In this document: positions 30,698 to 50,119 of the stretch, piece by piece | How the letters are laid out: each line of letters opens with the position of its first letter | Position numbering within the stretch: the stretch's first letter is position 1 | Origin: an uncultured Porphyromonadaceae bacterium | GTDB taxonomy: Bacteria > Bacteroidota > Bacteroidia > Bacteroidales > UBA11471 | Length of the DNA: 64,000 nt | Assembly: GCA_900542765.1 (NCBI GenBank) | Contig: UQOX01000004.1 | Span: 31,094-95,093 of the forward strand | Reading direction: 5' to 3' | Made by a program: the position numbers and the translations under genes | The notes under the pieces: generated by a model | The model's database searches: none | Seen by the model: only the letters and a program-made list of their open reading frames with translations | Told to the model about the DNA's origin: nothing

Positions 30698-31834
30698 TTA
30701 TAGGTTATTTTTCTTTTGAATTACATGGCGACGGAAACGGACGACAGACTCTTTGATTTGATTGTTGAATGCCGTTTCCTGTTCGAGCATGAAGTGTATG
30801 CGCAGGGGCAGGTAATAGAGGTGGCTTTTGATCAGAGAGGGTACGCGCGGACAGTCGAGCAGCCGGGCGGCGTCTTTCTCGGTGACGATGACATGCCCGC
30901 GCCCCCCGCTTTCGACCGAGGTGGCAATCCATTTCTCGATTTTGCGTAATTCTCGGGAGGTGAACTCGTGGTGGTCGCCAAAGCTCCACAACCGGGTATG
31001 CGGCGTGAACCGGCTGATGTATTCGGCAAAGAGACCGGGCGAGGCGATGCCGGCGACAAGAAGTGTTTCGCCCGGTGTGTCGCGTAATTGTTCGACGGTG
31101 ACGCGGGTGGGATTTTCGGTCGGGAACACGGCTTTGAGCTCGTCATAATGCAATCCCGTGAAATAGAGGCTTTGGTAAGGGTAGAGGTTGAGGTGCTTGG
31201 CCAGCAGCCGGTAGTCGATGGGTTTGAGGGCCTCGGGGCATTTGGTGACGATGACGATGTTGGCGCGCGATTTTTCCACGACCGGCTCTCTGAGTCGACC
31301 CACGGGGAGGAGCTTGTCTTCATATATCATACGCTCGTAGCTGGTGAGGAGTATCGACGTCGAAGGGGTCACAAACCGGTGTTGGTAGGCGTCGTCGAGC
31401 AGCACGATGTCGATGCCGTGGGTTTGCTCGGTGAGTTTGCGAATGCCCCGTCGGCGATTGGCGTCGACCGCCACGGTGACGGTGGGAAATTTATGTTTGA
31501 TTTGGAGCGGTTCGTCACCTACTTCGGCGGCCGTCGACGTCATGGTGACCAACTTGAAACCGCGCGTGTGCCGTTTGTATCCACGGCTGAGGACGGCTAC
31601 TCGGTAGGAGGCATCGGAGAAGGTGCGTATGAGATGTTCGATGTGAGGGGTTTTCCCGGTACCGCCTACCGTGATGTTGCCCACGCTGATGACGGGGACA
31701 TCGAAACTCTCCGAAGAGAGAATGTTCCAGTCGAAGAGCCGGTTGCGGAACCATACGATTACCCCGTAGAGCCATGCCAGGGGGGCGAGTAGCGGATAAT
31801 ATTTTATGCCGGAAGATTCCTGTCGATTGTTCAT
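30698..31834 (-). CDS. lpxK: Tetraacyldisaccharide 4'-kinase
   Basis: 378 residues. An N-terminal hydrophobic segment (LLAPLAWLYGVIVWF) precedes the P-loop region ISVGNITVGGTGKTPHIEHLI, then LSRGYKRHTRGF, GDEPLQIKHKFPTVTVAVDANRR and LLDDAYQHRFV. It adds the 4'-phosphate of lipid A at the inner-membrane face. First gene of a five-gene minus-strand operon. Confidence 0.95.
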   Translation of the reverse strand: MNNRQESSGIKYYPLLAPLAWLYGVIVWFRNRLFDWNILSSESFDVPVISVGNITVGGTGKTPHIEHLIRTFSDASYRVAVLSRGYKRHTRGFKLVTMTSTAAEVGDEPLQIKHKFPTVTVAVDANRRRGIRKLTEQTHGIDIVLLDDAYQHRFVTPSTSILLTSYERMIYEDKLLPVGRLREPVVEKSRANIVIVTKCPEALKPIDYRLLAKHLNLYPYQSLYFTGLHYDELKAVFPTENPTRVTVEQLRDTPGETLLVAGIASPGLFAEYISRFTPHTRLWSFGDHHEFTSRELRKIEKWIATSVESGGRGHVIVTEKDAARLLDCPRVPSLIKSHLYYLPLRIHFMLEQETAFNNQIKESVVRFRRHVIQKKNNL

Positions 31835-31902: not shown

Positions 31903-32112
31903 GAACATTTTTGTCAAAATGCCAACCTGTTGCGAGGGATATTCATATAAGAAGAAAAAGTCGGGCCCGAAGTGTGAATAAATCTTTTGAAAGTACAAAA
32001 AAATCAGTCTTTCCAGTCGGTTTTTGGAGAAATAATTTGTGTGGCTGCATTTTATTCTGTTACTTTGAAGCACTTTTGAGGAAAGAGGTTTTTGCCTCCC
32101 TTTTTTCGAAGC

Positions 32113-32193: not shown

Positions 32194-32544
32194 ATGAATT
32201 TATCCTTGTTAGTAGTCGTTTTCCTTACCGGCATTGTGCTGGTGACCGCAGCCCTGCTCATCGCATGGCTCATCTCACCCCGCTCGTATAACAGGCAGAA
32301 AGGAGAAGCCTATGAGTGCGGTATTCCCACACACGGAACGTCGTGGATGCAATTTAAGGTGGGATATTATCTGTTTGCCATTCTGTTTTTGATGTTCGAC
32401 GTCGAGACGGTGCTTCTGTTTCCGTGGGCAGTCATTGTCCGTGACTTGGGAGTCGCCGGCTTGGTGAACATTTTGTTTTTCTTGATAATCCTTGTCTTGG
32501 GTCTTGCCTATGCTTGGAAGAAAGGAGCGTTGGAATGGAAATGA
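32194..32544 (+). CDS. nuoA: NADH:quinone oxidoreductase subunit A
   Basis: 116 residues with three membrane helices (about 4-24, 56-76, 86-108). Family blocks: [40 protein letters not shown]. Membrane-arm subunit of complex I near the quinone site. First gene of the cluster; it overlaps nuoB by 10 bp. Confidence 0.95.
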
Positions 32545-33131
32545 AAAAACCGAAAATAAAATCGATGCAATACGAGGACTTCAAAGACAACGAGTCTCTC
32601 GAAAAAATGGTGGAGGAGCTCCGTGCCAACGGTACCAACGTGGTAGTGGGAGTCCTCGACGATGTCATCAATTGGGGCCGGTCCAATTCTCTCTGGCCGC
32701 TTACGTTCGCTACCAGCTGCTGCGGTATCGAATTCATGTCGGTGGGAGCTGCGCGCTATGACATGGCGCGGTTCGGGTTCGAGGTGGCCCGTGCCAGTCC
32801 GCGTCAGGCCGACTTTATCATGGTCGCCGGCACGATAGTACATAAAATGGCCCCCGTACTCAAACGTCTCTACGACCAGATGGCCGAACCCAAATATGTG
32901 ATTGCCGTCGGCGGTTGCGCCGTATCGGGCGGTCCTTTCAAAAACTCTTACCATGTGCTCAACGGGGTGGGAGAGATACTCCCCGTCGATGTGTACATAC
33001 CCGGTTGCCCGCCCCGTCCCGAGGCCATGCTCTATGGTATGATGCAGTTGCAGCGCAAAGTAAAACTCGAAAAGTTCTTCGGCGGCGTGAACCGTCAGGA
33101 ACAAAAACCGATAGAAGAATCCGAAGATTAA
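32535..33131 (+). CDS. nuoB: NADH:quinone oxidoreductase subunit B
   Basis: 198 residues from the ATG at 32535. An AGGAG at 32523-32527 lies 7 nt before it, favouring this start over the ATG at 32541 that overlaps the nuoA stop. N2 cluster ligands are in [19 protein letters not shown] and PGCPPRPEA. It carries the terminal 4Fe-4S cluster that passes electrons to quinone. Confidence 0.95.
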
Positions 33132-33153
33132 CCTCCTGATAAGATTACCTTTG

Positions 33154-34782
33154 ATGGCAAATATACAAGAAAAGATAACCGCCTTCCTTCCGGAAGTTGT
33201 TTTTGAAGAAGGCCAATATCCGACCTTTACCGTCCCGACCGGAAAAATGCCGGCTTTGGCTCGTTACCTGCATGATGACGAGGAGCTGCAATTCGACAAT
33301 CTCGCCGCTCTTGTCGGCATGGATTGGGGCGAGACCCTCGGCGTGGTCTATTATCTCAACTCGGTGAAGTATAACCACTGGGTGATTCTCAAAGCCGTGG
33401 CGGCCGACCGCAAAGACCCCCTGCTCTACACGGTGAGCGATGTGTGGGCAAACGCCAATTTCGAAGAACGCGAAGTCTACGATTTCTATGGCATACGTTT
33501 TATCGGTCACCCCGACATGCGCCGTATCTTCCTGCGTGAAGACTGGAATGGTTTCCCCATGCGCAAGGATTATGACACCAGCCGCGAAAACAACCCCATA
33601 CCCGAAACCAACGAAGAGTGCTCCGATACGACCGTGGCACTGGCTCTTGGTGCCGACGGGAAGGTCGAAAAAAAAGTCGTGGACATTTTTGACAAAAACG
33701 ACTACATCGTCAATATCGGCCCGCAGCACCCCGCCACGCACGGCGTATTGCGTTTCCGCACTTCGCTCGAAGGAGAGATCATCAAGAAAATCGACGTGCA
33801 TTGCGGCTACATACACCGCGGTATCGAGAAATTGTGGGAAGGAATGACCTACCCGCAAACGCTCCACATGACCGACCGTCTCGATTACCTCTCGGCACAT
33901 CAAAACCGCCATGCCCTGTGCATGTGCATCGAAGACGCCCTGCAACTCGAAGTTCCCCAGCGCGCACAATATATCCGCACGATGATGGACGAGTTGATGC
34001 GTATCTCGTCGCACTTGCTCTTCTTCTCGACCCTCTGCATGGATCTCGGTGCCCTCACGGCCTTCTTCTATGGCTTCCGTGAACGAGAGCTTGTACTCGA
34101 CATCTTCGAGGAGACCTGCGGTGCCCGCATGTCGATGAACTACAATACCATAGGCGGTGTCATGGCCGACATTCACCCCGACTTCCAACGCAAGGTCAAG
34201 GAGTTCATCAAAATCATGCCGGCCCGTCTGAAAGAGTATAATCAGGTATTTACCGGCAACGTCATAGCCCGCAACCGTATGATCGGCGTAGGACATCTCT
34301 CGCTCGAAGATGCCATACGTTACAACGCCACCGGACCCACCGGCCGTGCCTCGGGCTGGGCTTGCGACGTGCGCAAACGCACCCCTTATGCCGCATACGA
34401 CAAGGTGCAATTCGACGAAGTGCTGTCGCACGAGGGCGATTCCTATGCCCGCTACAATGTGCGTCTTGCCGAAATCGAGCAGTCGCTGCACATTCTCGAA
34501 CAACTCGTCGATAATATCCCCGAAGGCGATTATGCCGTGAAGACCAAACCCATCATCAAAGTACCCGAAGGCCGCTACTTCAAGCAAGTCGAAGCCTCCC
34601 GCGGTGCATTCGGCATCTATCTCGAAAGCCGGGGCGACAAGACACCCTATCGCCTCAAAGTGGTATCGCCGGGCTTTGCCCTCGTGGGGGTTGTCGACCA
34701 CCTCGTGCGGGGTGCGAAAATCGCCGACCTCATCACCATCGGTGGCTCGCTCGACTATGTGGTGCCCGACATCGACCGTTGA
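33154..34782 (+). CDS. nuoCD: NADH:quinone oxidoreductase subunit C/D fusion
   Basis: 542 residues from the ATG at 33154. Residues of about 1-140 are NuoC (ANFEEREVYDFYGIRFIGHPDMRRIFL); the rest is NuoD (IGPQHPATHGVLRF, GYIHRGIEKLWEGMTY, RMSMNYNTIGGV, GPTGRASGWACDVRK, IGSLD-like GGSLDYVVPDIDR). The fusion is seen in several bacterial groups including Bacteroidota and E. coli. It forms the quinone-binding peripheral arm. Confidence 0.95.
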   Translation: MANIQEKITAFLPEVVFEEGQYPTFTVPTGKMPALARYLHDDEELQFDNLAALVGMDWGETLGVVYYLNSVKYNHWVILKAVAADRKDPLLYTVSDVWANANFEEREVYDFYGIRFIGHPDMRRIFLREDWNGFPMRKDYDTSRENNPIPETNEECSDTTVALALGADGKVEKKVVDIFDKNDYIVNIGPQHPATHGVLRFRTSLEGEIIKKIDVHCGYIHRGIEKLWEGMTYPQTLHMTDRLDYLSAHQNRHALCMCIEDALQLEVPQRAQYIRTMMDELMRISSHLLFFSTLCMDLGALTAFFYGFRERELVLDIFEETCGARMSMNYNTIGGVMADIHPDFQRKVKEFIKIMPARLKEYNQVFTGNVIARNRMIGVGHLSLEDAIRYNATGPTGRASGWACDVRKRTPYAAYDKVQFDEVLSHEGDSYARYNVRLAEIEQSLHILEQLVDNIPEGDYAVKTKPIIKVPEGRYFKQVEASRGAFGIYLESRGDKTPYRLKVVSPGFALVGVVDHLVRGAKIADLITIGGSLDYVVPDIDR

Positions 34783-34832
34783 AACATACACACAGAAACC
34801 TTATTAAGTAGAACAAAATAACCTGCAACAAT

Positions 34833-35909
34833 ATGTTCGATTTCTCGATAGTAACACAATGGATTGACTCTTTCCTGAGAGAGTATATGCCCGAGTGGGG
34901 CGCCCTCTTGATTGAATTTGTCTTGATTGGAGTCGCCCTCCTGTTGCTATATGCACTTATCGCTTTGGCATTGATTTACGGCGAACGTAAAATCTGTGCC
35001 TTCTTCCAATGCCGTCTCGGCCCCAACCGTGTAGGCCCTTATGGAATATTCCAAAGTGTCGCCGATATGGTCAAAATCCTCATCAAGGAGCTTATTACTA
35101 TCAAACGTAGTGACCAGTTCCTTTTCAATCTGGCCCCCTATTTGGTGATACTTGCTTCGATGCTCACTTTCGGTTGCATGCCTTTCGGTCGTGGATTGCA
35201 AGTGCTCGACTTCAATATCGGCGTATTCTTCATCATGGCCGTCTCTTCGATAGGTGTGTTGGGAATCCTGTTGGCCGGCTGGTCGAGTAACAACAAGTTC
35301 ACCCTCATCGGGGCCATGCGAAGCGGCGCCCAGATGGTAAGTTATGAGCTTTCCATCGGCCTCTCGATGCTTTCGGTCGTGGTGTTTGCCGGTACGATGC
35401 AGACCTCGCAACTCATCGAGTTGCAAAGCCGTGGCTGGTTTATCTTCACCGGTCACATACCCATGCTCATAGCCTTCATCATCTACCTCATCGCCGGAAC
35501 GGCCGAGACCAATCGCGGCCCGTTTGACCTTCCCGAGGCAGAGTCGGAGCTCACCGCCGGTTATCACACCGAGTATTCGGGAATCCACTTCGGATTCTAC
35601 TATTTGGCCGAGTACCTCAATATGTTTATCGTCTCGGGTATTGCCAGCCTGCTCTTCCTGGGCGGTTGGATGCCCTTGCACATCGGAGGCTGGGACGCAT
35701 TCAACCAGGTAATGGATTATATCCCCTCGATTATCTGGTTCTTTGGCAAGACCGCCGTGGTGATGTTTATCATCATGTGGTTCAAGTGGACGTTCCCCCG
35801 TCTGCGTATCGACCAGTTGTTGAGCCTCGAATGGAAATATCTGGTACCCATAGGATTTGTCAACCTCCTGCTCGTGGTGCTGATAACCATCTTTGGCATA
35901 CACTTCTAA
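34833..35909 (+). CDS. nuoH: NADH:quinone oxidoreductase subunit H
   Basis: 358 residues, about eight or nine membrane helices. Blocks: [55 protein letters not shown] and [25 protein letters not shown], the NuoH quinone-channel signatures. atpD begins 31 nt after the stop with no terminator or promoter visible between, so the ATP synthase genes probably continue this transcript. Confidence 0.95.
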
Positions 35910-35931
35910 GAAAAAATACATAATGCAATAA

Positions 35932-37449
<1,518 letters not shown>

Positions 37450-37469
37450 TTTGTTAAAACGTCTGCACC

Positions 37470-37703
37470 ATGACACTCGAGATTATTTCCCCCACCGGAA
37501 TCCTTTTCCAAGGCGAAGCAACTCGCGTTACCTTGCCGGGGACTGTCGGTTCTTTCACCGTGTTGCAAGACCATGCTTCTCTGCTCTCGACCCTCAAAGC
37601 CGGAGAGTTGGAGTATGAAAGCGACGGTGAAGTAAAAACCTTGACGGTTGAAGGCGGATTTGTAGACGTAAACAACAACCGTGTTGTTGTGTGCCTCAAA
37701 TAA
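37470..37703 (+). CDS. atpC: ATP synthase F1 subunit epsilon, short form
   Basis: 77 residues, against 130-140 in E. coli. Only the N-terminal beta-sandwich is present (MTLEIISPTGILFQGEA, LPGTVGSFTVLQDHASLLSTL, VEGGFVDVNNNRVVV). The inhibitory C-terminal helices are absent, as in other Bacteroidota. It joins gamma to the c-ring; without the C-terminal helices it cannot use the usual epsilon-type inhibition. Confidence 0.9.
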   Translation: MTLEIISPTGILFQGEATRVTLPGTVGSFTVLQDHASLLSTLKAGELEYESDGEVKTLTVEGGFVDVNNNRVVVCLK

Positions 37704-37734
37704 GCCGAAGCTTACGATAAAAAACCAACCAGAG

Positions 37735-38814
37735 ATGAAAAAATATATGTTCCATCGTATCGCCTTGCTCCTTGCCTTGGCTTTTGCCATCGCCCCCGTG
37801 GCCAACGCGGCCGAGGAAGGGGAAGAGCAGGCTTTCGACGCCAAAGAGATCATATTCGAGCATGTGCTCGATAATTACGGTTGGGAAGTGCCATTCTCTC
37901 ACAGCACTCGCATACCGTTGCCCGTCATCGTGCGCGACAAGGACGGAAATTGGAGCGTGTTCGGCTCTCACCGCGTCATGCACGGGGAGACTTATGAGGG
38001 CTATTACGTTGCCTCCGACGGCGATTTCAAGGGAAAGGTCGTGACTCGCGATGAGGCGGGAAACGAATATCGCCCGTTCGACATCTCGATTACCAAGAAC
38101 GTGGCGGCACTTTTTATCACGGCCTTGCTGTTGTGTGTCTGCTTCATACCCATGGCGCGCTGGTACCGTCGTCACCCCAACGGGGCACCCCGCAAGTGGT
38201 TCGGGTTTATGGAACTGGTTTTTGACATGCTCTACAACGACCTCATAAAGCCGGTGCTTGGAGCCGATTCCCGTCGGTATGCTCCCTATCTGCTGACGGT
38301 ATTCTTCTTCATCTTCTTCATGAACATTCTCGGCCTGATGGTGATTTTCCCGGCCGGAGCCAACCTCACGGGCAATATTTCCATCACGATGGTTTTGGCC
38401 TTGTGCACATTCTTGGTTGTGAACCTGACCGGGACCAAGCATTATTGGAAAGACCTTTTCTGGCCCGAGGTACCCATGTGGATGAAGTGTCCCGTACCGT
38501 TGATGCCCATCATCGAAATCTTCGGAGCCTTCACCAAACCGGTGGCTCTCATGATACGTCTCTTTGCCAATATGCTGGGCGGTCACCTCATCGTGTTGGT
38601 CCTCATCTCGCTGATATTCATCTTCGGCTCCATGGGCGCGGCTGTGCTCACGGGAACGACAGTTATCTCGGTCTTCTTCTCGCTGTTCATGATGCTGCTC
38701 GATGTGCTTATCAGTTTCATTCAAGCCTATGTGTTCACCATACTCTCCACCATATTCATCAGCTTGGCCCGCGTGAAGGGAGAGTCGTCACACGAATCAC
38801 CCGTGAAAGAATAA
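37735..38814 (+). CDS. atpB: ATP synthase F0 subunit a
   Basis: 359 residues from the ATG at 37735. A signal-peptide-like N-terminus (MKKYMFHRIALLLALAFAIAPVANA) and a long periplasmic segment (about 25-120) precede the five-helix a-subunit core, with the conserved Arg in VALMIRLFANMLGGHL and PIIEIFGAFTKP. The extra N-terminal segment is typical of Bacteroidota a subunits. An earlier in-frame TTG or GTG start would overlap atpC and is rejected. Confidence 0.95.
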   Translation: MKKYMFHRIALLLALAFAIAPVANAAEEGEEQAFDAKEIIFEHVLDNYGWEVPFSHSTRIPLPVIVRDKDGNWSVFGSHRVMHGETYEGYYVASDGDFKGKVVTRDEAGNEYRPFDISITKNVAALFITALLLCVCFIPMARWYRRHPNGAPRKWFGFMELVFDMLYNDLIKPVLGADSRRYAPYLLTVFFFIFFMNILGLMVIFPAGANLTGNISITMVLALCTFLVVNLTGTKHYWKDLFWPEVPMWMKCPVPLMPIIEIFGAFTKPVALMIRLFANMLGGHLIVLVLISLIFIFGSMGAAVLTGTTVISVFFSLFMMLLDVLISFIQAYVFTILSTIFISLARVKGESSHESPVKE

Positions 38815-38826
38815 AGAAAAAAATAG

Positions 38827-39108
<282 letters not shown>

Positions 39109-39126
39109 TACAAAAAAATAGACACC

Positions 39127-39624
39127 ATGGAACTGTTTACTCCCGAATTCGGATTGGTATTCTGGATGTTCCTTGTGTTTGTCATTCTCTTTGTGATATT
39201 GGCAAAATATGCATGGCCTGCCATCATGAACAGTGTCGACGCCCGAGCCGACCTCATCGATAAAGGCGTAGCCTATGCACAGGAAGCCAAAAGCCAGCTC
39301 GAACATGCGACCGAAAATGCCCAGGTTCTTATCGGGGAAGCCCAGCAGAAACAACTCGAAATCTTGCGGGAAGCTGCCCAGATGAAGAGCCAAATCATCG
39401 AGGAAGCCCGCCAGGCAGCGACCGTCGAAGCCAAGAAAATCATCGATGCCGCCAATGTGTCGATAGAATTGGCCCGCAAGGAGTCGGAACGGCAATTCCG
39501 TCAGCAAGTCAGTGACTTCGCTTTGCAGATAGCCGAGAAGCTGATGCGGAAAGAACTGGCCGGAGACAAACAACAAGCTGAGTTGGTCGACAAACTATTA
39601 AGTGATATCGAGAATAAAAACTAA
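39127..39624 (+). CDS. atpF: ATP synthase F0 subunit b
   Basis: 165 residues. One N-terminal membrane helix (FGLVFWMFLVFVILFVILAKYAWPAI), then a long Ala/Glu/Gln-rich coiled coil that forms the stator. Single b gene, no b' homolog. 18 nt after atpE. Confidence 0.95.
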   Translation: MELFTPEFGLVFWMFLVFVILFVILAKYAWPAIMNSVDARADLIDKGVAYAQEAKSQLEHATENAQVLIGEAQQKQLEILREAAQMKSQIIEEARQAATVEAKKIIDAANVSIELARKESERQFRQQVSDFALQIAEKLMRKELAGDKQQAELVDKLLSDIENKN

Positions 39625-39630
39625 TACAAT

Positions 39631-40191
39631 ATGAACGAAGGACTTATTGCCCGCCGATATGCCAAGGCTTTGCTCAAATATGCGCAAGAGAAGGACAAGA
39701 CCCTTCCCGTATATGAAGCCGCTCGGCAAGTAGAAGCGAGTTTCATCGCCCGTCCCGATTTGCAGGAAGCGCTGCTCAACCCGGTGCTCAGTGCAGGCGA
39801 GAAAGAGGCGTTAATGCTCTCTGCTGCAGGTGTCGATGCCGCTTCTTCGGAAGAATACCTTCGTTTTGCACGTCTGCTTCTGCATGAGCGTCGCGAAGAC
39901 CATCTGCGCCAAATCATGCTCATGTACCAAAAGATTTATCGCGACGTGAACCATATTGTCAGAGCCCAAATCATAACGGCTGCCCCTCTCGACAAGAAGA
40001 TTCTTTCTCGCATCGAAGCCATCATCGAGCAACACTGCCCCGGTGCCCGCTTGGAGTTTGAACACATGGTCGACCCCGGAATCATCGGCGGTTTTGTGTT
40101 GAACGTCGGCGGTGAGCAGCTCGACGCTTCCCTCGAAAAAGAACTGAAACAATTGCGGTTAAAATTAATAAACAGCAAAACACGATTATGA
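39631..40191 (+). CDS. atpH: ATP synthase F1 subunit delta
   Basis: 186 residues. Starts [22 protein letters not shown]-terminal [52 protein letters not shown] matches the delta/OSCP family that links b to the top of F1. Its stop overlaps the atpA start by 4 bp (ATGA), indicating translational coupling. Confidence 0.95.
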
Positions 40192-41768
40192 TTAAACCAA
40201 GTGAGATTTCAGATATATTGAAACAGCAACTCGAAGAGGTCGACTCGAAGGTCTCTTTCGAAGAAGTCGGTACCGTGCTTGACGTCGGCGACGGTGTTGC
40301 CCACGTTTTCGGTCTCGACAACGTCAGTTCGAGTGAGCTCGTCGAGTTTGAAAACGGTGTGCGCGGTGTGGCCATGAACCTCGAAGAGAGCAACGTCGGT
40401 GTCATCTTGATGGGTGCCGACAGCAATACCGTAAAAGAGAACATGACCGTGCGTCGCACCGGCAAGATAGCCTCTATTCCCGTAGGCGATGGCTTGATAG
40501 GTCGTGTTATCAATACCCTGGGTGACCCTATCGACGGTGCCGGCCCCATTACCGGTGAGACCCTCACGTTGCCCCTCGACCGGAAAGCTCCCGGTGTGAT
40601 TTTCCGTCAGCCCGTGAACCAGCCGTTGCAGACCGGTATCAAGGCTGTCGACGCCATGGTGCCCATCGGACGCGGACAGCGCGAGTTGATTATCGGTGAC
40701 CGCCAGATCGGTAAGACATCGATTGCCATCGATACCATTATCAACCAACGTAAAAATTTCCTCGCCGGAGACCCGGTATACTGCATCTATGTCGCCATCG
40801 GACAGAAAGCCTCTTCGGTAGCCACCTTGGTCAACACCCTGCGTGAGCACGGTGCCATGGACTATACCATCGTGCTGGCTGCCAATGCCTCCGACTCGGC
40901 GTCGATGCGCTACTATGCTCCATTTGCCGGAGCCACCATCGGTGAGTATTTCCGCGACAGCGGCCGTCATGCCCTTGTCGTGTATGACGACCTCTCGAAA
41001 CAGGCCGTGGCCTACCGTGAGATTTCGCTTATCTTGCGCCGTCCCTCAGGACGTGAGGCTTACCCCGGAGATATTTTCTACCTTCACTCGCGTCTATTGG
41101 AGAGAGCCGCCAAGATTATTGCCAATGATGCGGTTGCCGCTACGATGAACGACCTGCCCGAAGCGCTGAAACCTATTGTCAAAGGTGGCGGTTCGCTCAC
41201 GGCACTTCCCATCATCGAAACCCAGGCCGGTGACGTTTCGGCCTATATCCCGACCAACGTCATCTCCATTACCGACGGTCAGATATTCCTCGAAACGGGC
41301 CTCTTCAACCAAGGTATGCGTCCCGCCATCAACGTCGGTATCTCGGTATCGCGTGTCGGTGGCAACGCCCAAGTCAAAGCCATGAAGAAGGTGGCCGGTA
41401 CCTTGAAAATCGACCAGGCCCAATATCGTGAGCTCGAAGCCTTCACCAAGTTCGGCGGTGACCTCGACCCCGTAACCGCCATGGTTATCGACAAAGGCCG
41501 CAAGAACAGCATGTTGCTGGTGCAACCCCAGTACACGCCCATGCCCGTCGAGGAAGAAATCGCCGTTGTCTATTGCGGTACCCGCGGCCTGTTGGCCGAT
41601 GTGCCCGTAGAAAATGTGGCTGAGTTTGAGAAATATTTCCTCGAAATATTACGCGGTCGTCACGAGCAAGACGTTCTTACCCCGTTGCGTGAAGGAAAAC
41701 TTACCCCCGAGGTCGAGACCATCTTGAAAGAAACGGCCCAAGAAGTAGTAAAACGCTTTAAGAAATAA
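40188..41768 (+). CDS. atpA: ATP synthase F1 subunit alpha
   Basis: 526 residues. P-loop [18 protein letters not shown] (Ile in the variable position where Thr is common; GK[ST] is kept). Then [62 protein letters not shown] and [18 protein letters not shown]. Non-catalytic nucleotide-binding F1 subunit. Confidence 0.97.
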
Positions 41769-41774
41769 TCTGCT

Positions 41775-42650
41775 ATGTCGACAATGCGCGAGTTGAAGGG
41801 AAGAATCGGCTCGGTAGAGTCTTCCCAGAAAATCACCGGTGCCATGAAGATGATTTCATCGGCAAAGTTGCGTAAAGCCGAGCAGGCTTTGCGTGGCATG
41901 GCACCCTACCGGGAACAGTTGCAGTTGACCATCAACAATCTTCTCGAAGCCGACCGCGACTATGAGTCGCCCCTGACACAACAACGTCCTGTGCACCGGG
42001 TGGCCATCGTCCTGCTGGCTTCCGACGAGGGATTGTGCGGCGCTTACAACTCCAATCTCTACAAAGCCCTGCTTGCCCGCATCACCGAGTTGCATGCCGA
42101 GTTTCCCGGACAACTTGCCATCGACGTCTATCCCGCCGGGAAAAAAGTCGTTTCGGCCGTGAACCGCACGGTCGGGATAACCTCTTGCCGGCGAGATGGC
42201 TTCCACGCCAAAAGCACGCCCGATGAGTTGAAACAGTTCATCGGCGAGATGACCCGAGCGTTTCTCGATGGGACCTATGACCGCGTAGAGTGCATCTATA
42301 CCCACTATAAGAGCATGGCCTCTCAAATCGTCAAGACGCGTACCCTGTTGCCTGTCAGTATCGAGGCCACGTCTGTTGCCAAAGCTCCCGCCCGGATTAC
42401 CCCCTATATCTATGAGCCGGGCAGTGCCGCCATTTTCGAGACGGTGTTGCCCCTCTTTGTCAATGCTTCGTTTATCGAAGCCTGCCTGCAAAGCCGCACG
42501 TCGGAGCAGGGCGCCCGCATCATTGCCATGCAGACCGCCAGTGACAATGCCGGCAAGTTGCTCGATGAGTTACGCATCGAATACAACAAGTTGCGCCAGC
42601 AAGGCATTACAAACGAACTGCTCGACATTGTCGGCGGTTCGGTCAGATAA
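41775..42650 (+). CDS. atpG: ATP synthase F1 subunit gamma
   Basis: 291 residues. N-terminal MSTMRELKGRIGSVESSQKITGAMKMISSAKLRKAE and C-terminal MQTASDNAGKLLDELRIEYNKLRQQGITNELLDIVGG, the two helices of the rotating shaft. Last atp gene; a terminator hairpin follows 17 nt later, before nuoI. Confidence 0.95.
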   Translation: MSTMRELKGRIGSVESSQKITGAMKMISSAKLRKAEQALRGMAPYREQLQLTINNLLEADRDYESPLTQQRPVHRVAIVLLASDEGLCGAYNSNLYKALLARITELHAEFPGQLAIDVYPAGKKVVSAVNRTVGITSCRRDGFHAKSTPDELKQFIGEMTRAFLDGTYDRVECIYTHYKSMASQIVKTRTLLPVSIEATSVAKAPARITPYIYEPGSAAIFETVLPLFVNASFIEACLQSRTSEQGARIIAMQTASDNAGKLLDELRIEYNKLRQQGITNELLDIVGGSVR

Positions 42651-42667
42651 AACCAGACAACCAAACA

Positions 42668-42697
42668 AAAAGTACCGGGTTCCGGCCTGGTACTTTT
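42668..42697 (+). terminator. Intrinsic terminator between atpG and nuoI
   Basis: AAAAGTACC at 42668-42676 pairs with GGTACTTTT at 42689-42697. Inner pairs (G-T, G-C, G-C) extend the stem to about 12 bp with a TTCCGG loop. The T-run is short (42694-42697, then ATAT). No TAnnTTTG element was found between it and nuoI, so nuoI-N may rely on read-through or on an unrecognised promoter. Confidence 0.7.
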
Positions 42698-42738
42698 ATA
42701 TGTAAAAACGAAAAAAAGAAAGAGCTACATTACCATTT

Positions 42739-43200
42739 ATGGAAAGTTTAAAAAATTACTTTGTCAATTTCTGGAAAGGACTGTGGAGTCTTCTCGTGGG
42801 AATGAAAGTAACAGGCACCGAGTTTGTTACGCCGAAAGTGACCGAGCAATATCCCGAGAATCGTGAGACGTTGCATATTGCCGACCGTTTCAGAGCCACT
42901 CTTACGCTCAAATTCGACGCCGAAGGTCAACACAAATGTATCGCGTGCGGTATTTGTCAGATGAACTGCCCCAACCACACCATACAGGTCATCTCCAAGA
43001 AAGTCGAGACCGAAGACGGGAAATCCAAACGGGTGCTCGACGACTATATCTATGACCTGGGCAGTTGCGTCTTCTGCCAGCTGTGCGTAAATACCTGTCC
43101 GCATGACGCGCTCGAATTTACCAACGAGTTCGAACAAGCCGTCTTCGACCGCACCAAACTGGTAAAGCATCTCAACCGTAAACCTGAAAATTCAAAATAA
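42739..43200 (+). CDS. nuoI: NADH:quinone oxidoreductase subunit I
   Basis: 153 residues. Two 4Fe-4S motifs: C67-x2-C70-x2-C73-x3-C77 and C110-x2-C113-x2-C116-x3-C120. It carries clusters N6a/N6b of complex I and lies against NuoB. First gene after the inserted atp block. Confidence 0.95.
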   Translation: MESLKNYFVNFWKGLWSLLVGMKVTGTEFVTPKVTEQYPENRETLHIADRFRATLTLKFDAEGQHKCIACGICQMNCPNHTIQVISKKVETEDGKSKRVLDDYIYDLGSCVFCQLCVNTCPHDALEFTNEFEQAVFDRTKLVKHLNRKPENSK

Positions 43201-43209
43201 CATTTCGAT

Positions 43210-43722
43210 ATGGAACAAGTAGCCAATCAAGTCATATTCTTCCTGCTCTCGGCAGTCATTGTCGTGTGCTCGATTATGGCCGTGACCAGCCGTCGCATCT
43301 TGCGTGCAGCCACCTATCTGCTCTTTGTGCTCTTTGCAACGGCCGGGTATTATTTTCAACTCGATTACCATTTCTTGGGAGCCGTGCAGGTGACCATCTA
43401 CGCCGGAGGTATCTTGGTGCTCTTCGTCTTTGCCATCTTGCTCACCAGCAAGTTGGGGGAGAAAAGCGACCGCATCTCTTCCCGCAAGCGCGGCTGGGGG
43501 CTTTTTGCCGCCATTCTCGGTGCCTGCATCTGCGGATACACCCTCCTCACTCACGATTTCTTCCCCTCTCAGTTTGCCGCCGGTGGTGAGCTCGATATGA
43601 AGACGGTGGGACATGCGCTCATGGGTATGGATAAATATCAATATCTTTTGCCCTTTGAAGCCATCAGTGTGCTGTTACTCGCTTGTATAATCGGAGGCAT
43701 CATGATTGCCCGTAAAAGATAA
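43210..43722 (+). CDS. nuoJ: NADH:quinone oxidoreductase subunit J
   Basis: 170 residues, about five helices. Conserved block YYFQLDYHFLGAVQVTIYAGGILVLFVFAILLTS. Membrane-arm subunit, in a tight nuoI-J-K-L series. Confidence 0.95.
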   Translation: MEQVANQVIFFLLSAVIVVCSIMAVTSRRILRAATYLLFVLFATAGYYFQLDYHFLGAVQVTIYAGGILVLFVFAILLTSKLGEKSDRISSRKRGWGLFAAILGACICGYTLLTHDFFPSQFAAGGELDMKTVGHALMGMDKYQYLLPFEAISVLLLACIIGGIMIARKR

Positions 43723-43730
43723 GAAAGACT

Positions 43731-44042
43731 ATGGAAATACCCATGATTTACTATGTTGTGGTGAGTACCATCATGTTCTTTGCCGGAGTCTACGGCTTTG
43801 TGACCCGTCATAACCTGTTGGCTATTCTCATATCGCTCGAACTGATGCTCAACGCGGTCGACATCAACTTTGTCGTCTTCAACCGCTATCTCTTCCCCGG
43901 TCAGCTCGAAGGTTTCTTCTTCACCCTCTTTGCCGTGGCCATAGCCGCTGCCGAGACCGCGATTGCCATTGCCATCATCATCAACATCTATCGGAATATC
44001 CGTAACATCAATGTCGATAACGTCGACAAAATGAAATATTGA
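43731..44042 (+). CDS. nuoK: NADH:quinone oxidoreductase subunit K
   Basis: 103 residues, three helices. Blocks FFAGVYGFVTRHNLLAILISLELMLNAVDINFV and FAVAIAAAETAIAIAIIINIYR with the membrane Glu residues used in proton transfer. 8 nt after nuoJ. Confidence 0.95.
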   Translation: MEIPMIYYVVVSTIMFFAGVYGFVTRHNLLAILISLELMLNAVDINFVVFNRYLFPGQLEGFFFTLFAVAIAAAETAIAIAIIINIYRNIRNINVDNVDKMKY

Positions 44043-44068
44043 GAAACTATCGCTACTGAACAACGATT

Positions 44069-45973
44069 ATGGAATACGCTTATATCATACTGTTGTTGCC
44101 GATGCTGATGTTTATCACGCTCGGTCTTTGCGGCCATAAAATGTCGCACCGCACGGCCGGGTTGTTAGGCACGTCGGCTCTTTTTGTCATTACCATTCTG
44201 TCATACATCGTCGCTGCTCAATATTTCATGCAGCCGCGTGTCGATGGCATTTATCCCACTCTCACGCCCTGTCACTTCGAGTGGTTGCGTTTCACCGAGT
44301 GGCTGCACATCGACTTGGGTATCATGCTCGACCCCATTTCGGTCATGATGTTGGTGGTCATTACCACCGTATCGTCGATGGTGCACCTTTACAGCCTTGG
44401 CTATATGCACGGTGAAGTAGGGTTCCAGCGTTACTATGCTTTCCTTTCGCTCTTCACCTTCTCCATGCTCGGACTGGTGGTCGCCACCAACATTTTCCAG
44501 ATGTATATCTTCTGGGAGCTTGTGGGTGTGTCGTCATACCTGCTCATCGGCTTCTATTACACCCGCCAGTCGGCCGTTGCCGCCTCGAAAAAGGCGTTCA
44601 TCGTCACCCGTTTTGCCGACCTGGGTTTCCTGCTCGGTATCTTGTTGCTCTCCTATTATACCAAGACGTTCGACTTTGCCACCCTCACCAGCGGTGAAGT
44701 TTCGCTCGTAGGCACGACGGCCGGAAAGACATTCCTCGGTGTGTCGGTTGCTTCTTGGGCCATGATGTTGGTGTTTATGGGAGGTGCCGGTAAGTCGGCC
44801 ATGTTCCCGTTGCACATTTGGTTGCCCGATGCCATGGAAGGTCCTACCCCTGTCTCGGCCCTTATCCATGCCGCAACGATGGTGGTGGCCGGTGTGTTCC
44901 TGGTGGCACGTCTCTTCCCCATCTATGTCACCACCCCCGAGGTACTCACCGTTATTACGGTCATCGGCGCCGTTACCGCTCTCTATGCGGCCGTCGTGGC
45001 TTGTGTGCAGACCGACATTAAGCGTGTGCTGGCATTCTCTACCATTTCGCAGATTGCCTTTATGATTGTCGCTCTCGGCGTGACCACCGAGATGAACGGA
45101 CACGGAGCCCTCGGTTATATGGCTTCCATGTTCCACCTCTTTACCCACGCCATGTTCAAGGCCCTTCTCTTCCTCGGTGCCGGTGCCATCATTCATGCTG
45201 TGCACTCCAACGAGATGTCGGAGATGGGCGGCTTGCGCAAATATATGCCGATAACCCACATTACTTTCCTCATCGCCTGCTTGGCCATTGCCGGTATTCC
45301 TCCCTTCTCGGGCTTTTTCAGCAAAGACGAGATTTTGGCTGCCGCTTTTGAAAAGAGCACGTTCTGGGGCGTGTGGATGTCGCTTGTTGCCGGTCTCACG
45401 GCTTTCTACATGTTCCGTCTTTACTACAACATTTTCTGGGGCAAGGAGGCTCACCACGAGCACACGCCGCATGAGGCACCCAAGACGATGTCGATACCTC
45501 TCATTTTCTTGGCCTTGGTTACCTGCTTTGCCGGGTTCATACCCTTCGGCCACTTTGTGACGGCCAGCGGTCTTTCCTATACCATTCACCTCAACTGGGC
45601 TGTGGCCGGTACCAGCATCGGTATTGCCATCGTGGGAATCGCCTTGGCCACCTGGCTCTATATGAAGCCCAATGACAAGCCGGCTCGCATGGCTCAGTCG
45701 ATGAGTGCTCTCCATCGCTGGGCTTATCACCGCTTCTACATCGATGAGGTATATATGTATATTACCCACAAAATCATCTTCCGCCATATCTCGACGCCCA
45801 TTGCCTGGTTTGACCGCCATGTCGTCGACGGGACGATGAATCTCATGGCGACCCTCACCCAGTCGGCCTCTTACCACATCAGAGGCTTGCAGTCGGGACG
45901 CTTGCAGTCTTACGCCGTTGTCTTCCTGCTCGGCGCCATGATTGTCGCATTCGTTGTGTTGTGTTGCTTCTAA
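44069..45973 (+). CDS. nuoL: NADH:quinone oxidoreductase subunit L
   Basis: 634 residues. Antiporter-like core with FWELVGVSSYLLIGFYYTR, AGKSAMFPLHIWLPDAMEGPTPVSALIHAATMVVAGVFL, AFSTISQIAFMIVALG and FLIACLAIAGIPPFSGFFSKDEIL. The C-terminal lateral helix region is present. Distal proton-pumping subunit. Confidence 0.95.
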   Translation: MEYAYIILLLPMLMFITLGLCGHKMSHRTAGLLGTSALFVITILSYIVAAQYFMQPRVDGIYPTLTPCHFEWLRFTEWLHIDLGIMLDPISVMMLVVITTVSSMVHLYSLGYMHGEVGFQRYYAFLSLFTFSMLGLVVATNIFQMYIFWELVGVSSYLLIGFYYTRQSAVAASKKAFIVTRFADLGFLLGILLLSYYTKTFDFATLTSGEVSLVGTTAGKTFLGVSVASWAMMLVFMGGAGKSAMFPLHIWLPDAMEGPTPVSALIHAATMVVAGVFLVARLFPIYVTTPEVLTVITVIGAVTALYAAVVACVQTDIKRVLAFSTISQIAFMIVALGVTTEMNGHGALGYMASMFHLFTHAMFKALLFLGAGAIIHAVHSNEMSEMGGLRKYMPITHITFLIACLAIAGIPPFSGFFSKDEILAAAFEKSTFWGVWMSLVAGLTAFYMFRLYYNIFWGKEAHHEHTPHEAPKTMSIPLIFLALVTCFAGFIPFGHFVTASGLSYTIHLNWAVAGTSIGIAIVGIALATWLYMKPNDKPARMAQSMSALHRWAYHRFYIDEVYMYITHKIIFRHISTPIAWFDRHVVDGTMNLMATLTQSASYHIRGLQSGRLQSYAVVFLLGAMIVAFVVLCCF

Positions 45974-46013
45974 TGAACTCTATCGGAAACAGAAAAAACG
46001 AGTTGAATATATT

Positions 46014-47513
46014 ATGAACTTTTTATCTTTATTCGTGCTTATCCCTCTTTTGATGATGGCCGGCCTGGCCCTCTCGAAAGAGATGAAACAAATACGCGCC
46101 GTTGCCGTCATCGGCTCGTCGTTGCAGCTGGTTCTGTCCTTCGTCTTGTTGTTTATGTTCTTGGGCGAACGTGCTGCCGGTAACACGGCCGAGATGCTTT
46201 TTGTCGCCGATACCGTGTGGTATGCGCCGCTGGGCATTCATTATACGGTGGGTGTCGACGGGGTGTCGGTTGCCATGCTGGTGCTCTCGGCCATCATCGT
46301 TTTTGCCGGGGTTTTCGCTTCGTGGAAAATCGAACCGCTGCCCAAGGAATTTTTCTTGTGGCTGATACTCCTCTCGATTGGCGTGTTCGGGTTCTTCATC
46401 TCCATCAACCTCTTCACGATGTTCATGTTCTATGAGATAGCCCTTATCCCCATGTACCTGCTCATCGGTGTGTGGGGGAGCGGCAACAAGACCTACTCGG
46501 CCATGAAGCTGACCTTGATGCTCATGGGCGGTTCGGCTCTTCTGCTGGTGGGTATCCTGGGCATCTACTTCAACTCTTCGGCCGATGGGAATCTGACCAT
46601 GAATATCCTCGAAATAGCCCGTAACAATGCCATACCCCACGAGATGCAATATTATCTCTTCCCGCTCACATTTGTGGGATTCGGCGTGCTGGGAGCCATG
46701 TTCCCCTTCCACACATGGTCGCCCGACGGTCACGCCTCGGCGCCTACGGCCGTGTCGATGTTGCACGCCGGTGTGCTCATGAAACTGGGAGGGTACGGCT
46801 GCTTCCGCGTGGCCATGTACCTCATGCCTTGGGCTACTACCGAACTGTCGTGGATATTCCTGATTCTTACCGGTATCAGTGTTGTCTATGGGGCATTCAG
46901 CGCCTGCGTGCAGACCGACCTCAAATACATCAACGCCTACTCTTCGGTGAGCCACTGCGGTCTTGTGCTCTTCGCCTTGCTCATGTGGAACACCACCGCC
47001 ATGACCGGTGCCGTGTTGCAGATGCTCTCGCACGGATTGATGACGGCTCTCTTCTTTGCCCTCATCGGTATGATTTACGGTCGTACCCACACCCGTGACA
47101 TTCGCGAGATGGGCGGGCTTATGAAAATCATGCCTTTCCTCTCGGCCTGCTATGTGATTGCCGGTCTTGCTTCACTGGGCCTTCCCGGACTGAGCGGCTT
47201 CGTGGCCGAGATGACCGTCTTTGTCGGTTCGTTCCAGTGGGACGATACTTTCCGTCGCGTCTTTACCATCGTAGCCTGCACCTCTATTGTGATTACCGCC
47301 GTCTATATTTTGCGGGTGGTCGGCAAGTTGCTCTATGGTAAAGTGCAGAACGAGCACCATCGTGAGTTGACCGATGCCGCTTGGTTTGAACGCCTTTCGG
47401 CTATCACCCTCATCGTGGGTGTAGCCGCCATCGGTATGGCTCCGGGTTGGATTGCCAATCTTATCAGCGACAGCATGAGTGTGATCAGTGAACGTATTTT
47501 GCAATATATCTAA
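46014..47513 (+). CDS. nuoM: NADH:quinone oxidoreductase subunit M
   Basis: 499 residues from the ATG at 46014. Antiporter-like core: FMFYEIALIPMYLLIGVWG, FPFHTWSPDGHASAPTAVSMLHAGVLMKLGGYG and YSSVSHCGLVLFALL. An upstream in-frame start at 45942 lies inside nuoL and is rejected. Confidence 0.95.
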   Translation: MNFLSLFVLIPLLMMAGLALSKEMKQIRAVAVIGSSLQLVLSFVLLFMFLGERAAGNTAEMLFVADTVWYAPLGIHYTVGVDGVSVAMLVLSAIIVFAGVFASWKIEPLPKEFFLWLILLSIGVFGFFISINLFTMFMFYEIALIPMYLLIGVWGSGNKTYSAMKLTLMLMGGSALLLVGILGIYFNSSADGNLTMNILEIARNNAIPHEMQYYLFPLTFVGFGVLGAMFPFHTWSPDGHASAPTAVSMLHAGVLMKLGGYGCFRVAMYLMPWATTELSWIFLILTGISVVYGAFSACVQTDLKYINAYSSVSHCGLVLFALLMWNTTAMTGAVLQMLSHGLMTALFFALIGMIYGRTHTRDIREMGGLMKIMPFLSACYVIAGLASLGLPGLSGFVAEMTVFVGSFQWDDTFRRVFTIVACTSIVITAVYILRVVGKLLYGKVQNEHHRELTDAAWFERLSAITLIVGVAAIGMAPGWIANLISDSMSVISERILQYI

Positions 47514-47528
47514 TCAGAAACTAAGTAT

Positions 47529-48950
47529 ATGGATTTTTCAAACTTTCTGTGGATGCGCGATGAGTTGTCGCTCTTGACAATTATTCTTGTCCTCTTCCTT
47601 TACGACACATTCGGCACGGAGAAGAGCCGCCGCGCTTTCTCGTGGGTGGCCTGCCTGTTGCTGGCAGCCCAGACGGCTTTCCTCTTTTTCAATCCCGTGA
47701 CGGGGGAGGCCTTCGGCGGTATGTACCAGACATCGCCCGTCATCAACGTCGTGAAAATCGTACTCAATATAGGAACCTTGCTGGTACTCATTCAGGCCAA
47801 TGCCTGGGCCAAGTCGCCCGACATGGCGGTGCGCCGGGGTGAGTTCTACGTCCTCACGCTCATGACCCTGCTGGGTATGTACCTGATGATTTCCTCGGGC
47901 AACTTCCTGCTCTTCTTCATCGGGCTCGAAATGGCATCGCTGCCCCTCACGGCCTTGGTGGCCATTGAGAAGTACCACCGGCTCTCCTACGAGGCGGCTG
48001 CCAAATATGTCTTTGTGGCGCTCTTTTCCTCGTCGCTCATGCTGTTGGGCATCTCCTTCATCTACGGCGCCGTGGGTACGCTCTATTTTACCGACATGGC
48101 GGCTCAACTCCTGGGTACCCCGCTGCTCTATGTGGGTCTCGTGCTTTTCCTGGCTGGCATGGGCTTCAAAATCTCCATCGTGCCCTTCCACCTCTGGACG
48201 GCCGATGTTTACCAGGGCGCTCCGACCTCTATCACCGCCTATCTCTCGGTCATCTCAAAAGGGGCTGCGGCCTTTGCCTTGATGGTGGTTCTCTTCAAGG
48301 TCTTCTCTTCGGTGGCCGTCGTGTGGCAACCGGTTCTGTGGGGGCTTATCGTGATTACGATTACCATCGGTAACCTCTTTGCCGTGCGTCAGAAAAACCT
48401 CAAACGCTTCATGGCCTTCTCGTCGATTTCGCAAGCCGGATACATTCTGTTGGGTGTCATTGCCGGTTCGGCTGTGGGCATGACCTCGCTCATCTATTAT
48501 GTGCTGGTGTATGTCTTCTCCAACTTGGCCGTCTTCGGTGTGATTTCGGTTATCGAGAATGCGACGGGTAAGGTCGGCATGGACGATTACAACGGTCTCT
48601 ACCGCACCAACCCCAAGTTGAGCGTGGCCATGATGTTGGCTCTCTTCTCGCTGGCCGGTATTCCTCCCTTCGCGGGATTTTTCAGCAAGTTCTTCATCTT
48701 CTATGCCGCCGTCGAAGAGGGCTTCTATGTATTGGTGTTCATTGCCTTGCTCAACACCATCATCTCGCTCTACTACTATCTGTTGGTGGTGAAGGCGATG
48801 TTTATCCGTCAGGACGATTGCGTGATACCCACTATCCAGAGCGACGGCGCCTCGAAACTCAGCATTTCGCTCTGCGTGCTTGGCGTGCTGTTGGTGGGAT
48901 TGATCAGCGGTATCTATTCGTCGATTACCCCCTTATCATTCGGAATGTAA
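47529..48950 (+). CDS. nuoN: NADH:quinone oxidoreductase subunit N
   Basis: 473 residues. FFIGLEMASLPLTALVAIEKYHRLSYEAAAKYV, FKISIVPFHLWTADVYQGAPTSITAYLSVISKGAA and LFSLAGIPPFAGFFSKFFIF are NuoN signatures. Last gene of the cluster, followed by its own terminator. No nuoE, F or G is present, the usual state in Bacteroidota. Confidence 0.95.
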   Translation: MDFSNFLWMRDELSLLTIILVLFLYDTFGTEKSRRAFSWVACLLLAAQTAFLFFNPVTGEAFGGMYQTSPVINVVKIVLNIGTLLVLIQANAWAKSPDMAVRRGEFYVLTLMTLLGMYLMISSGNFLLFFIGLEMASLPLTALVAIEKYHRLSYEAAAKYVFVALFSSSLMLLGISFIYGAVGTLYFTDMAAQLLGTPLLYVGLVLFLAGMGFKISIVPFHLWTADVYQGAPTSITAYLSVISKGAAAFALMVVLFKVFSSVAVVWQPVLWGLIVITITIGNLFAVRQKNLKRFMAFSSISQAGYILLGVIAGSAVGMTSLIYYVLVYVFSNLAVFGVISVIENATGKVGMDDYNGLYRTNPKLSVAMMLALFSLAGIPPFAGFFSKFFIFYAAVEEGFYVLVFIALLNTIISLYYYLLVVKAMFIRQDDCVIPTIQSDGASKLSISLCVLGVLLVGLISGIYSSITPLSFGM

Positions 48951-48979: not shown

Positions 48980-49021
48980 GCAGGTGGCAGAACGTCGGTT
49001 TTGCCGCCTGCCGTTTTTTTC
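48980..49021 (+). terminator. Terminator after nuoN
   Basis: GCAGGTGGCA at 48980-48989 pairs with TGCCGCCTGC at 49002-49011 (10 bp with one T-G pair), followed by CG and seven T at 49014-49020. Confidence 0.75.
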
Positions 49022-49237: not shown

Positions 49238-50119
49238 TTACTGAACACCTGTCGTTTCGACCTCTTTGTTGATTTTCTTGATGAGGCCTTGCAGTACGCT
49301 GCCGGGACCTACTTCGGTAAACGAGGTGGCACCGTCGGCAATCATGTTGAGTACAGATTGTGTCCAGCGAACGGGAGCCGTAAGTTGGGCTATCAGGTTG
49401 GCTTTGATGGCGGCGGGATCGGTGACAGCCTGTGCGCTCACGTTTTGGTAAACGGGGCATTTCGGCTCGAAGAATTGGGTGTGGGCGATGGCTTCGGCCA
49501 GTTCGGCACGGGCCGGTTCCATGATGGGCGAGTGGAAGGCGCCGCCCACTTTCAGTTTCAGGGCACGTTTGGCACCGGCGGCGAGCATCTTTTCGCAAGC
49601 AGCGTCGATACCTTTTTCGTCGCCCGAGATAACGACTTGTCCCGGGCAGTTATAGTTGGCGGGAACGACAACGCCTTCGGTGACCGAAGCGCAAATCTCT
49701 TCGATTTTCTCATCGGGGAGAGCCAAGACGGCGGCCATCGTCGAGGGCGTGGCTTCGCAGGCTTTCTGCATGGCGCGGGCACGGGCGGCAACCAGGCGCA
49801 CACCGTCTTCGAACGAGAGGGCACCGGCAGCTACAAGTGCCGAAAATTCACCGAGCGAGTGGCCGGCTACCATTTCGGGGCAGAAGGCGTCGCCCATGGT
49901 TTTGGCAAGAATCACCGAGTGCAGGAAGATGGCGGGTTGCGTCACTTTGGTTTGGCGCAGATCCTCGTCGCTACCGGCAAACATCAGGTCGGTGATGCGG
50001 AAGCCTAATATCTCGTTGGCTTTCTCAAACATGGCTTTGGCTTCGCTGTTGTTGTCATACAGCTCTTTGCCCATACCTACGAATTGGGCGCCTTGTCCCG
50101 GAAATACAAATGCTTTCAT
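49238..50119 (-). CDS. fabD: Malonyl-CoA:ACP transacylase
   Basis: 293 residues. Acyltransferase motifs FPGQGAQFVGMG and the nucleophile elbow GHS88LG, followed by VAARARAMQKACE, with AFHSPIM carrying the catalytic His near residue 200. Cytosolic; loads malonyl onto ACP for fatty-acid synthesis. Monocistronic, with a -7 element at 50163-50156. Confidence 0.95.
   Translation of the reverse strand: MKAFVFPGQGAQFVGMGKELYDNNSEAKAMFEKANEILGFRITDLMFAGSDEDLRQTKVTQPAIFLHSVILAKTMGDAFCPEMVAGHSLGEFSALVAAGALSFEDGVRLVAARARAMQKACEATPSTMAAVLALPDEKIEEICASVTEGVVVPANYNCPGQVVISGDEKGIDAACEKMLAAGAKRALKLKVGGAFHSPIMEPARAELAEAIAHTQFFEPKCPVYQNVSAQAVTDPAAIKANLIAQLTAPVRWTQSVLNMIADGATSFTEVGPGSVLQGLIKKINKEVETTGVQ

Follow-up and report, generated by a model that had tools for sequence, protein, structure and literature searches.

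Within a stretch of 64,000 nucleotides (nt) from an uncultured Porphyromonadaceae bacterium (contig UQOX01000004.1; the whole stretch is called the window below), a complete set of F-type ATP synthase genes lies inside the gene cluster for complex I. Eighteen open reading frames (ORFs), all on the plus strand, are arranged as nuoA-B-CD-H, atpD-C-B-E-F-H-A-G and nuoI-J-K-L-M-N (Table 1). The best NCBIfam match of each of the 18 proteins is the expected Nuo or F-type ATP synthase subunit, the scores of NuoA, AtpC, NuoI and NuoJ lying under every curated cut-off shown. By these matches the cluster encodes all F1Fo subunits (alpha, beta, gamma, delta, epsilon, a, b and c) as well as NuoA, B, C, D, H, I, J, K, L, M and N, with C and D fused. 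The ORF list and the matches bear out the gene order, position and strand given in a first-pass annotation of the window, together with its intact atp set inside nuo. The atp order, which it had called standard, is that of the stand-alone Bacteroidales atp operons at the uninserted loci L146, L149 and L151, which unlike the window's set have no nuo flanks.

We consider it rather probable that these genes form a composite chemiosmotic operon, in which the atp set was translocated once between nuoH and nuoI and kept there, the genes from nuoA to nuoN constitute one unit, and a hairpin between atpG and nuoI is the remnant of an old terminator. The complete atp set would have moved in the ancestor of a clade comprising the window's genus, Barnesiella, Muribaculaceae and four further families. 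A promoter before nuoA would drive transcription of all 18 genes up to a terminator after nuoN, and the F-type ATP synthase would be expressed together with a complex I that lacks NuoEFG. The hairpin would be a leftover atp terminator that is now read through or else acts as a site of mRNA processing or stability, through which the levels of atp and nuoI-N could differ. We see no grounds for assuming that the two enzymes form a physical supercomplex.

Distribution and origin of the insertion

Our even sample of the order Bacteroidales comprised 393 genomes, 154 of them with NuoH at E <= 1e-60; AtpD at E <= 1e-100 was found in 72 of 77 plus 67 of 77 of these, i.e. in 139. Comparison of printed coordinates places nuoH and atpD next to each other in 32 of the 139 genomes that have both. 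They belong to seven family codes (f1, that of the window, 5 genomes; f61, 5; f109, 4; f22, 5; f29, 5; f88, 3; f26, 5), of which f26 is taken as Muribaculaceae-type and f109 as Barnesiella from their placement in the tree described below. Every member of the seven families among the 154 NuoH-positive genomes shows the adjacency. It occurs in none of the 107 other genomes, for eight of which the NuoH position comes from a separate search, several matches being weak (42-46% identity) and maybe belonging to related complexes rather than to Nuo. Whether the arrangement is order-wide, a question raised by the first-pass annotation, can thus be answered from the nuoH-atpD search: it is not order-wide, nor is it peculiar to one genome.

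Within the window's genus atpD directly follows nuoH in 7/7 genomes; the nearest genome, G001, has 74% of sampled words in common with the window and a NuoH match listed at 100% identity. Among the 128 f26 genomes that are at least 90% complete, NuoH and AtpD were each found in 127, and the two genes are adjacent in 126 of 127 (three of these with AtpD cut at a contig end); in the remaining genome, G446, they lie on separate contigs. Joint loss of NuoH and AtpD was considered for G426, which seemed to have neither, and rejected: one of its contigs carries AtpA and a portion of NuoL, the remainder of NuoL sits at the edge of a second contig, and a gap in the assembly is more likely.

The search for atpG next to nuoI, run as well, yielded both junctions in 31 of the 32 inserted G-genome loci examined, the other one ending before nuoI (the 32 come from 34 inserted G-genomes, all but G195 and G377). 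Among 80 named loci, 30 have both junctions, 7 have nuoH-atpD followed by the end of the stretch, 42 are uninterrupted (nuoI after nuoH without atp and within 2 kb, the distance being 0.9 and 1.6 kb in L059 and L099) and one could not be judged. The inserted loci include Barnesiella, Muribaculum, Paramuribaculum, Ca. Limisoma and Muribaculaceae, and in the Muribaculaceae-type genomes the insertion site is identical to that of the window, between nuoH and nuoI. Uninterrupted loci bear names such as Bacteroides, Phocaeicola, Alistipes, Tannerella and Dysgonomonadaceae. The statement in the first-pass annotation that the two clusters are separate in Bacteroides holds, as nuo is uninterrupted in Bacteroides-type loci and atpD does not stand beside it. 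Three inserted loci from metagenome bins labelled Bacteroides or Alloprevotella (L078, L094, L098) group with the Muribaculaceae-type loci in the tree, and their labels are probably wrong.

The tree was computed from the NuoB, NuoCD and NuoH proteins only (quick LG+G4). Its input consisted of L010-L027, L033-L110 and L111-L147, minus L129 and L146; loci with fewer than 300 aligned NuoH residues or without an assessable junction were dropped, and the 127 labelled loci (68 inserted) were reduced to 120 rows by removing identical NuoH. The 62 inserted rows and the 58 uninterrupted rows fall on opposite sides of a single branch with a Shimodaira-Hasegawa-like approximate likelihood ratio (SH-aLRT) of 98, so that the label changes once. 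When the tree is rooted with L027, a distant outgroup on a long branch, the uninserted group closest to the inserted clade comprises 37 rows, and the 14 of these that are listed include Bacteroides, Alistipes and Odoribacteraceae names, f24 and f106; f88 is the first branch within the inserted clade. The simplest reading is one translocation in one ancestor. By the single, well-supported change in this Nuo-only tree, the insertion in the window and that in Muribaculaceae-type loci is shared by common descent.

A single AtpD match at the above threshold is present in 137 of the 139 genomes, and both genomes with a second match are uninserted. Identity of AtpD to that of the window is 78-100% within the clade (full-length matches), 80-81% in uninserted f106 and 69-76% elsewhere (a fragment in G254 has 79%). 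These values fit vertical descent and are no proof of it. In one uninserted f106 genome, G112 (L129, L130), the two clusters, atp and nuo, run towards each other on the same contig, their 3' ends about 11 kb apart. We rejected this genome as an ancestral intermediate; in other uninserted genomes with both genes on one contig, nuoH and atpD are separated by about 74 kb (G384, with a weak NuoH match), 90 kb (G391), 0.2 Mb (G331), 0.4 Mb (G097), 1.7 Mb (G139) and 2.4 Mb (G262).

Transcription signals and the atpG-nuoI junction

The Bacteroides promoter consensus is composed of TTTG at -33 and TAnnTTTG at -7, of which the -33 part is not found in Flavobacterium (PMC7366714). We scanned the sense strand for this consensus with at most one mismatch, counting in clade loci over the 300 nt before each gene. 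The window contains two matches in 17.25 kb, both before nuoA, compared with 4.9 expected from shuffles, the coding part falling below expectation. Both blocks of the candidate promoter align across the 7 genus members (L116 has CTTG instead of TTTG), and 6 of the 7 pass the scan before nuoA. Across the clade, clear enrichment is confined to this position, with the motif in 33/54 loci (7.1 expected). The counts are 0/56 before nuoCD (1.5 expected), 0/56 before nuoH (1.7), 9/56 before atpD (6.4), 5/56 before atpE (4.5), 2/55 before nuoI (1.4) and 4/54 before nuoL (5.2). In uninserted genomes the motif precedes atpD in 9/24 (2.8 expected), which indicates that the scan is able to pick up the signal of a stand-alone atp set. 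A scan for sigma-70 sites of the E. coli type gave 29 on both strands (14.2 expected) and was left unused because the Bacteroides motif differs.

The 31 nt between nuoH and atpD, said by the first-pass annotation to be free of a terminator, are so: no hairpin or terminator-like site is predicted there. The second junction is a spacer of 88 nt (42651-42738), and here that annotation had passed over a strong hairpin. The minimum free energy of the spacer is -18.3 kcal/mol (z -3.36; 0/200 shuffles as good). The terminator scan did not list this hairpin on the plus strand; it returned 17 sites where 16.5 were expected, and consequently we used the strongest alone, which lies after nuoN.

Folds were compared over 55 loci, for those spacers that have at least 30 nt, leaving out L031, L032, L033, L049, L061 and L066 (contigs already present) and L120 (which ends before nuoI). 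Rows within one genus are near-copies (L111 and L115; L112 to L114), so that the spacer counts are not independent. Relatives have a stem in the same place with a different sequence (e.g. L112, L116, L121, L122, L132). Spacers with z <= -3 were found in 6/7 loci of f1, 2/4 of f61 and 3/4 of f22, in 0/6 of f109 (median -2.6) and 0/2 of f88, and in none of the 25 tested of 27 Muribaculaceae-type loci; those of f29 measure 6-17 nt in 5/5 and are too short for the test. A hairpin at this place is present throughout f1 and f109, in most of f22 and in some of f61; it was not seen in f29, f88 or the Muribaculaceae-type loci tested. Other spacers reach this value rarely (nuoCD-nuoH 0/46, nuoH-atpD 0/46, atpB-atpE 1/41, atpD-atpC 1/22, nuoI-nuoJ 1/5).

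In 7 of the 15 uninserted loci that have atpG in the stretch (L146, L151, L152, L155, L156, L158, L160), atpG is followed by a hairpin whose end is rich in T (6 or more T in 10), compared with 4 of the 25 inserted loci listed, and the stems of L131 and L132 in f22 have no T tract. Because of this difference, the junction hairpin fits an inherited atp terminator that has since decayed, been lost or been made into a processing site.

Tied expression of the two enzymes, as proposed by the first-pass annotation, is likely, since the sole clearly enriched promoter signal sits before nuoA. The proposal has to be restricted at its 3' end: given the terminator-like hairpin that separates atpG from nuoI, it cannot be taken for granted that nuoI-N are expressed at the level of the other genes. 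Adjacency without shared control, in which nuoABCDH plus atp and nuoIJKLMN would be separate transcripts, the hairpin an efficient terminator and nuoI equipped with its own promoter, appears unlikely to us. The strength of the window's hairpin, its short T tail and the low z values in f1, f61 and f22 speak for it, whereas promoter-like sites before nuoI do not exceed expectation, the f22 hairpins of L131 and L132 lack the T tract, the f29 spacers are very short and no tested Muribaculaceae-type spacer folds to z <= -3.

Several observations nevertheless weigh against a single transcription unit with a remnant hairpin. The promoter comparison is confounded in that the sequence before nuoA is intergenic while that before atpD and nuoI is mostly coding, and its control is a single-base shuffle. 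In f88, promoter-like sites precede atpD in 2/2 loci and nuoA in 0/2. Absence of the hairpin from f88, the first branch, from f29 and from the Muribaculaceae-type loci tested demands several losses if it descends from an ancestral terminator, and separate gains are possible; in the window's genus the hairpin could terminate most transcripts. Finally, the split in the Muribaculaceae-type genome G240 means that the 3' nuo block need not be linked to the rest. At its locus L142, the 6.5 kb past nuoI (13473 onward) yielded none of nuoJ-N, nuoL lies about 1 Mb from nuoI on the same contig, and the composite cluster is seemingly broken past nuoI.

We also have to consider that the translocation was neutral and has been retained by descent, with no benefit from linking the enzymes, an explanation compatible with shared transcription and quite possible, if short of probable. 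A single event accounts for the entire distribution, so that no independent recurrence argues for selection, and G240 shows that the cluster can be broken after nuoI. The nearly full retention of the nuoH-atpD junction across the sampled species points the other way, but it is also explicable by the cost of breaking an essential operon and is thus not decisive. Many named relatives are metagenome bins, which might suggest an artefact of assembly or binning; the identical order in the single-contig genomes G264 and G296 (L118, L123) and in Barnesiella sp. An22 (L034), whose record bears no metagenome-bin label, makes this extremely improbable, as does the recurrence in independent assemblies. 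We exclude chance because the order recurs in relatives. As a more far-reaching and rather doubtful extension of the composite operon, the insertion may have handed control of the ATP synthase to the nuo promoter in the founder of the clade, so that complex I, poorly expressed by B. fragilis in rich medium, became its constitutive partner, with the junction hairpin setting the ratio of synthase to membrane arm by partial termination or mRNA processing.

Function and relation to known systems

The electron donor of this 11-subunit pump is probably not NADH, because the 18 cluster genes include none for NuoEFG and no NuoF above the model cut-off was found in 7/7 related genomes, where a search aimed at NuoF, not at NuoE or NuoG, gave only partial matches under the cut-off; the same search, as a control, exceeded the cut-off in 4/14 known genomes. 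In Desulfitobacterium, pyruvate:ferredoxin oxidoreductase and ferredoxin are proposed donors of complex I (PMC11238625). In the window, complex I would probably pass electrons to menaquinone from a donor of the ferredoxin or flavodoxin type while pumping protons, and the co-encoded synthase would then form ATP. The c subunit contains the ion-binding Glu and lacks, by sequence and alignment, the Gln and Ser/Thr that we take to belong to the Na+ ligand set. Both enzymes would be proton-coupled.

Ormerod et al. 2016 reported that F-type ATP synthase genes are integrated into the complex I locus of 'Ca. Homeothermaceae' (S24-7, now Muribaculaceae; PMC4936053). As in the window (family code f1, as against the Muribaculaceae-type f26), the atp genes lie there inside an 11-subunit complex I locus without NuoEFG, and by the Nuo tree both loci would go back to one and the same event. 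The excerpts of that report state the integration for one family and give no site, promoter, hairpin or origin. Our literature search, with supplements outside its scope, met the integration in PMC4936053 alone and found none reported for Barnesiella or other families. The arrangement is therefore already known for Muribaculaceae and the window is another member; what we add are six more family groups, evidence for a single origin and the anatomy of the junctions, none of which was met in the literature searched.

The nuo operon of B. fragilis (BF638R_0850-0841) likewise encodes 11 subunits without nuoEFG, and the excerpted parts of its description mention no atp genes (PMC7002350); the Bacteroides loci examined here have uninterrupted nuo. 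According to the same source, the B. fragilis enzyme has no NADH:quinone activity, its genes are poorly expressed in rich medium, and their deletion causes no colonisation defect in competition. The inserted cluster amounts to a natural experiment, in which an essential energy enzyme is linked to one that is dispensable in B. fragilis. If transcription is shared, Muribaculaceae and Barnesiella could not turn nuo off in the way that B. fragilis seems to, and different fermentation energetics would be predicted. The nuoH-atpD junction is moreover a clean gene-order marker of a large clade of gut Bacteroidales (at least seven families).

Coordinates and gene features

Table 1. Genes, junctions and predicted signals of the nuo-atp cluster, in window coordinates
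Feature	Position	Strand	Evidence and remarks
Candidate sigma-ABfr-type promoter, TTTG - 20 nt - TTACTTTG	32036..32067	+	motif scan, prediction
nuoA	32194..32544	+	ORF list, NCBIfam
nuoB	32514..33131	+	ORF list, NCBIfam; listed ORF overlaps nuoA
nuoCD, fused	33151..34782	+	ORF list, NCBIfam
nuoH	34833..35909	+	ORF list, NCBIfam
First junction nuoH-atpD, 31 nt	35910..35940	+	no terminator-like hairpin, no Bacteroides promoter motif match
atpD (beta)	35941..37449	+	ORF list, NCBIfam
atpC (epsilon, 77 amino acids)	37470..37703	+	ORF list, NCBIfam
atpB (a)	37681..38814	+	ORF list, NCBIfam; GTG start as listed
atpE (c)	38851..39108	+	NCBIfam, sequence, alignment
atpF (b)	39127..39624	+	ORF list, NCBIfam
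atpH (delta)	39631..40191	+	ORF list, NCBIfam
atpA (alpha)	40188..41768	+	ORF list, NCBIfam
atpG (gamma)	41775..42650	+	ORF list, NCBIfam
Terminator-like hairpin, 13 bp, short T tail	42668..42697	+	folding of the 88-nt spacer; stem from centroid structure
nuoI	42739..43200	+	ORF list, NCBIfam
nuoJ	43210..43722	+	ORF list, NCBIfam
nuoK	43731..44042	+	ORF list, NCBIfam
nuoL	44069..45973	+	ORF list, NCBIfam
nuoM, longest ORF	45942..47513	+	ORF list, NCBIfam
nuoN	47529..48950	+	ORF list, NCBIfam
Intrinsic-terminator-like site after nuoN, 14-pair stem, then CGTTTTTTTC (T run)	48980..49011	+	terminator scan

The true start of nuoM is probably about 65-80 nt downstream of the start of the longest ORF, as the family matches in NCBIfam begin only at residues 23-28 or later. 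The flanking genes are unrelated and lie on the minus strand: upstream a divergent gene of the LpxK family (30701-31834), downstream a convergent gene with an acyl-transferase domain (49241-50119).

The short AtpC aligns solely with the N-terminal part of full-length epsilon models and probably lacks the inhibitory C-terminal helices. In the uninserted loci L148, L149 and L150, about 440-490 nt separate the tblastn hits of atpC and atpB, which leaves space for an extra small gene; the corresponding gap is below 200 nt in the inserted loci examined and in f106.

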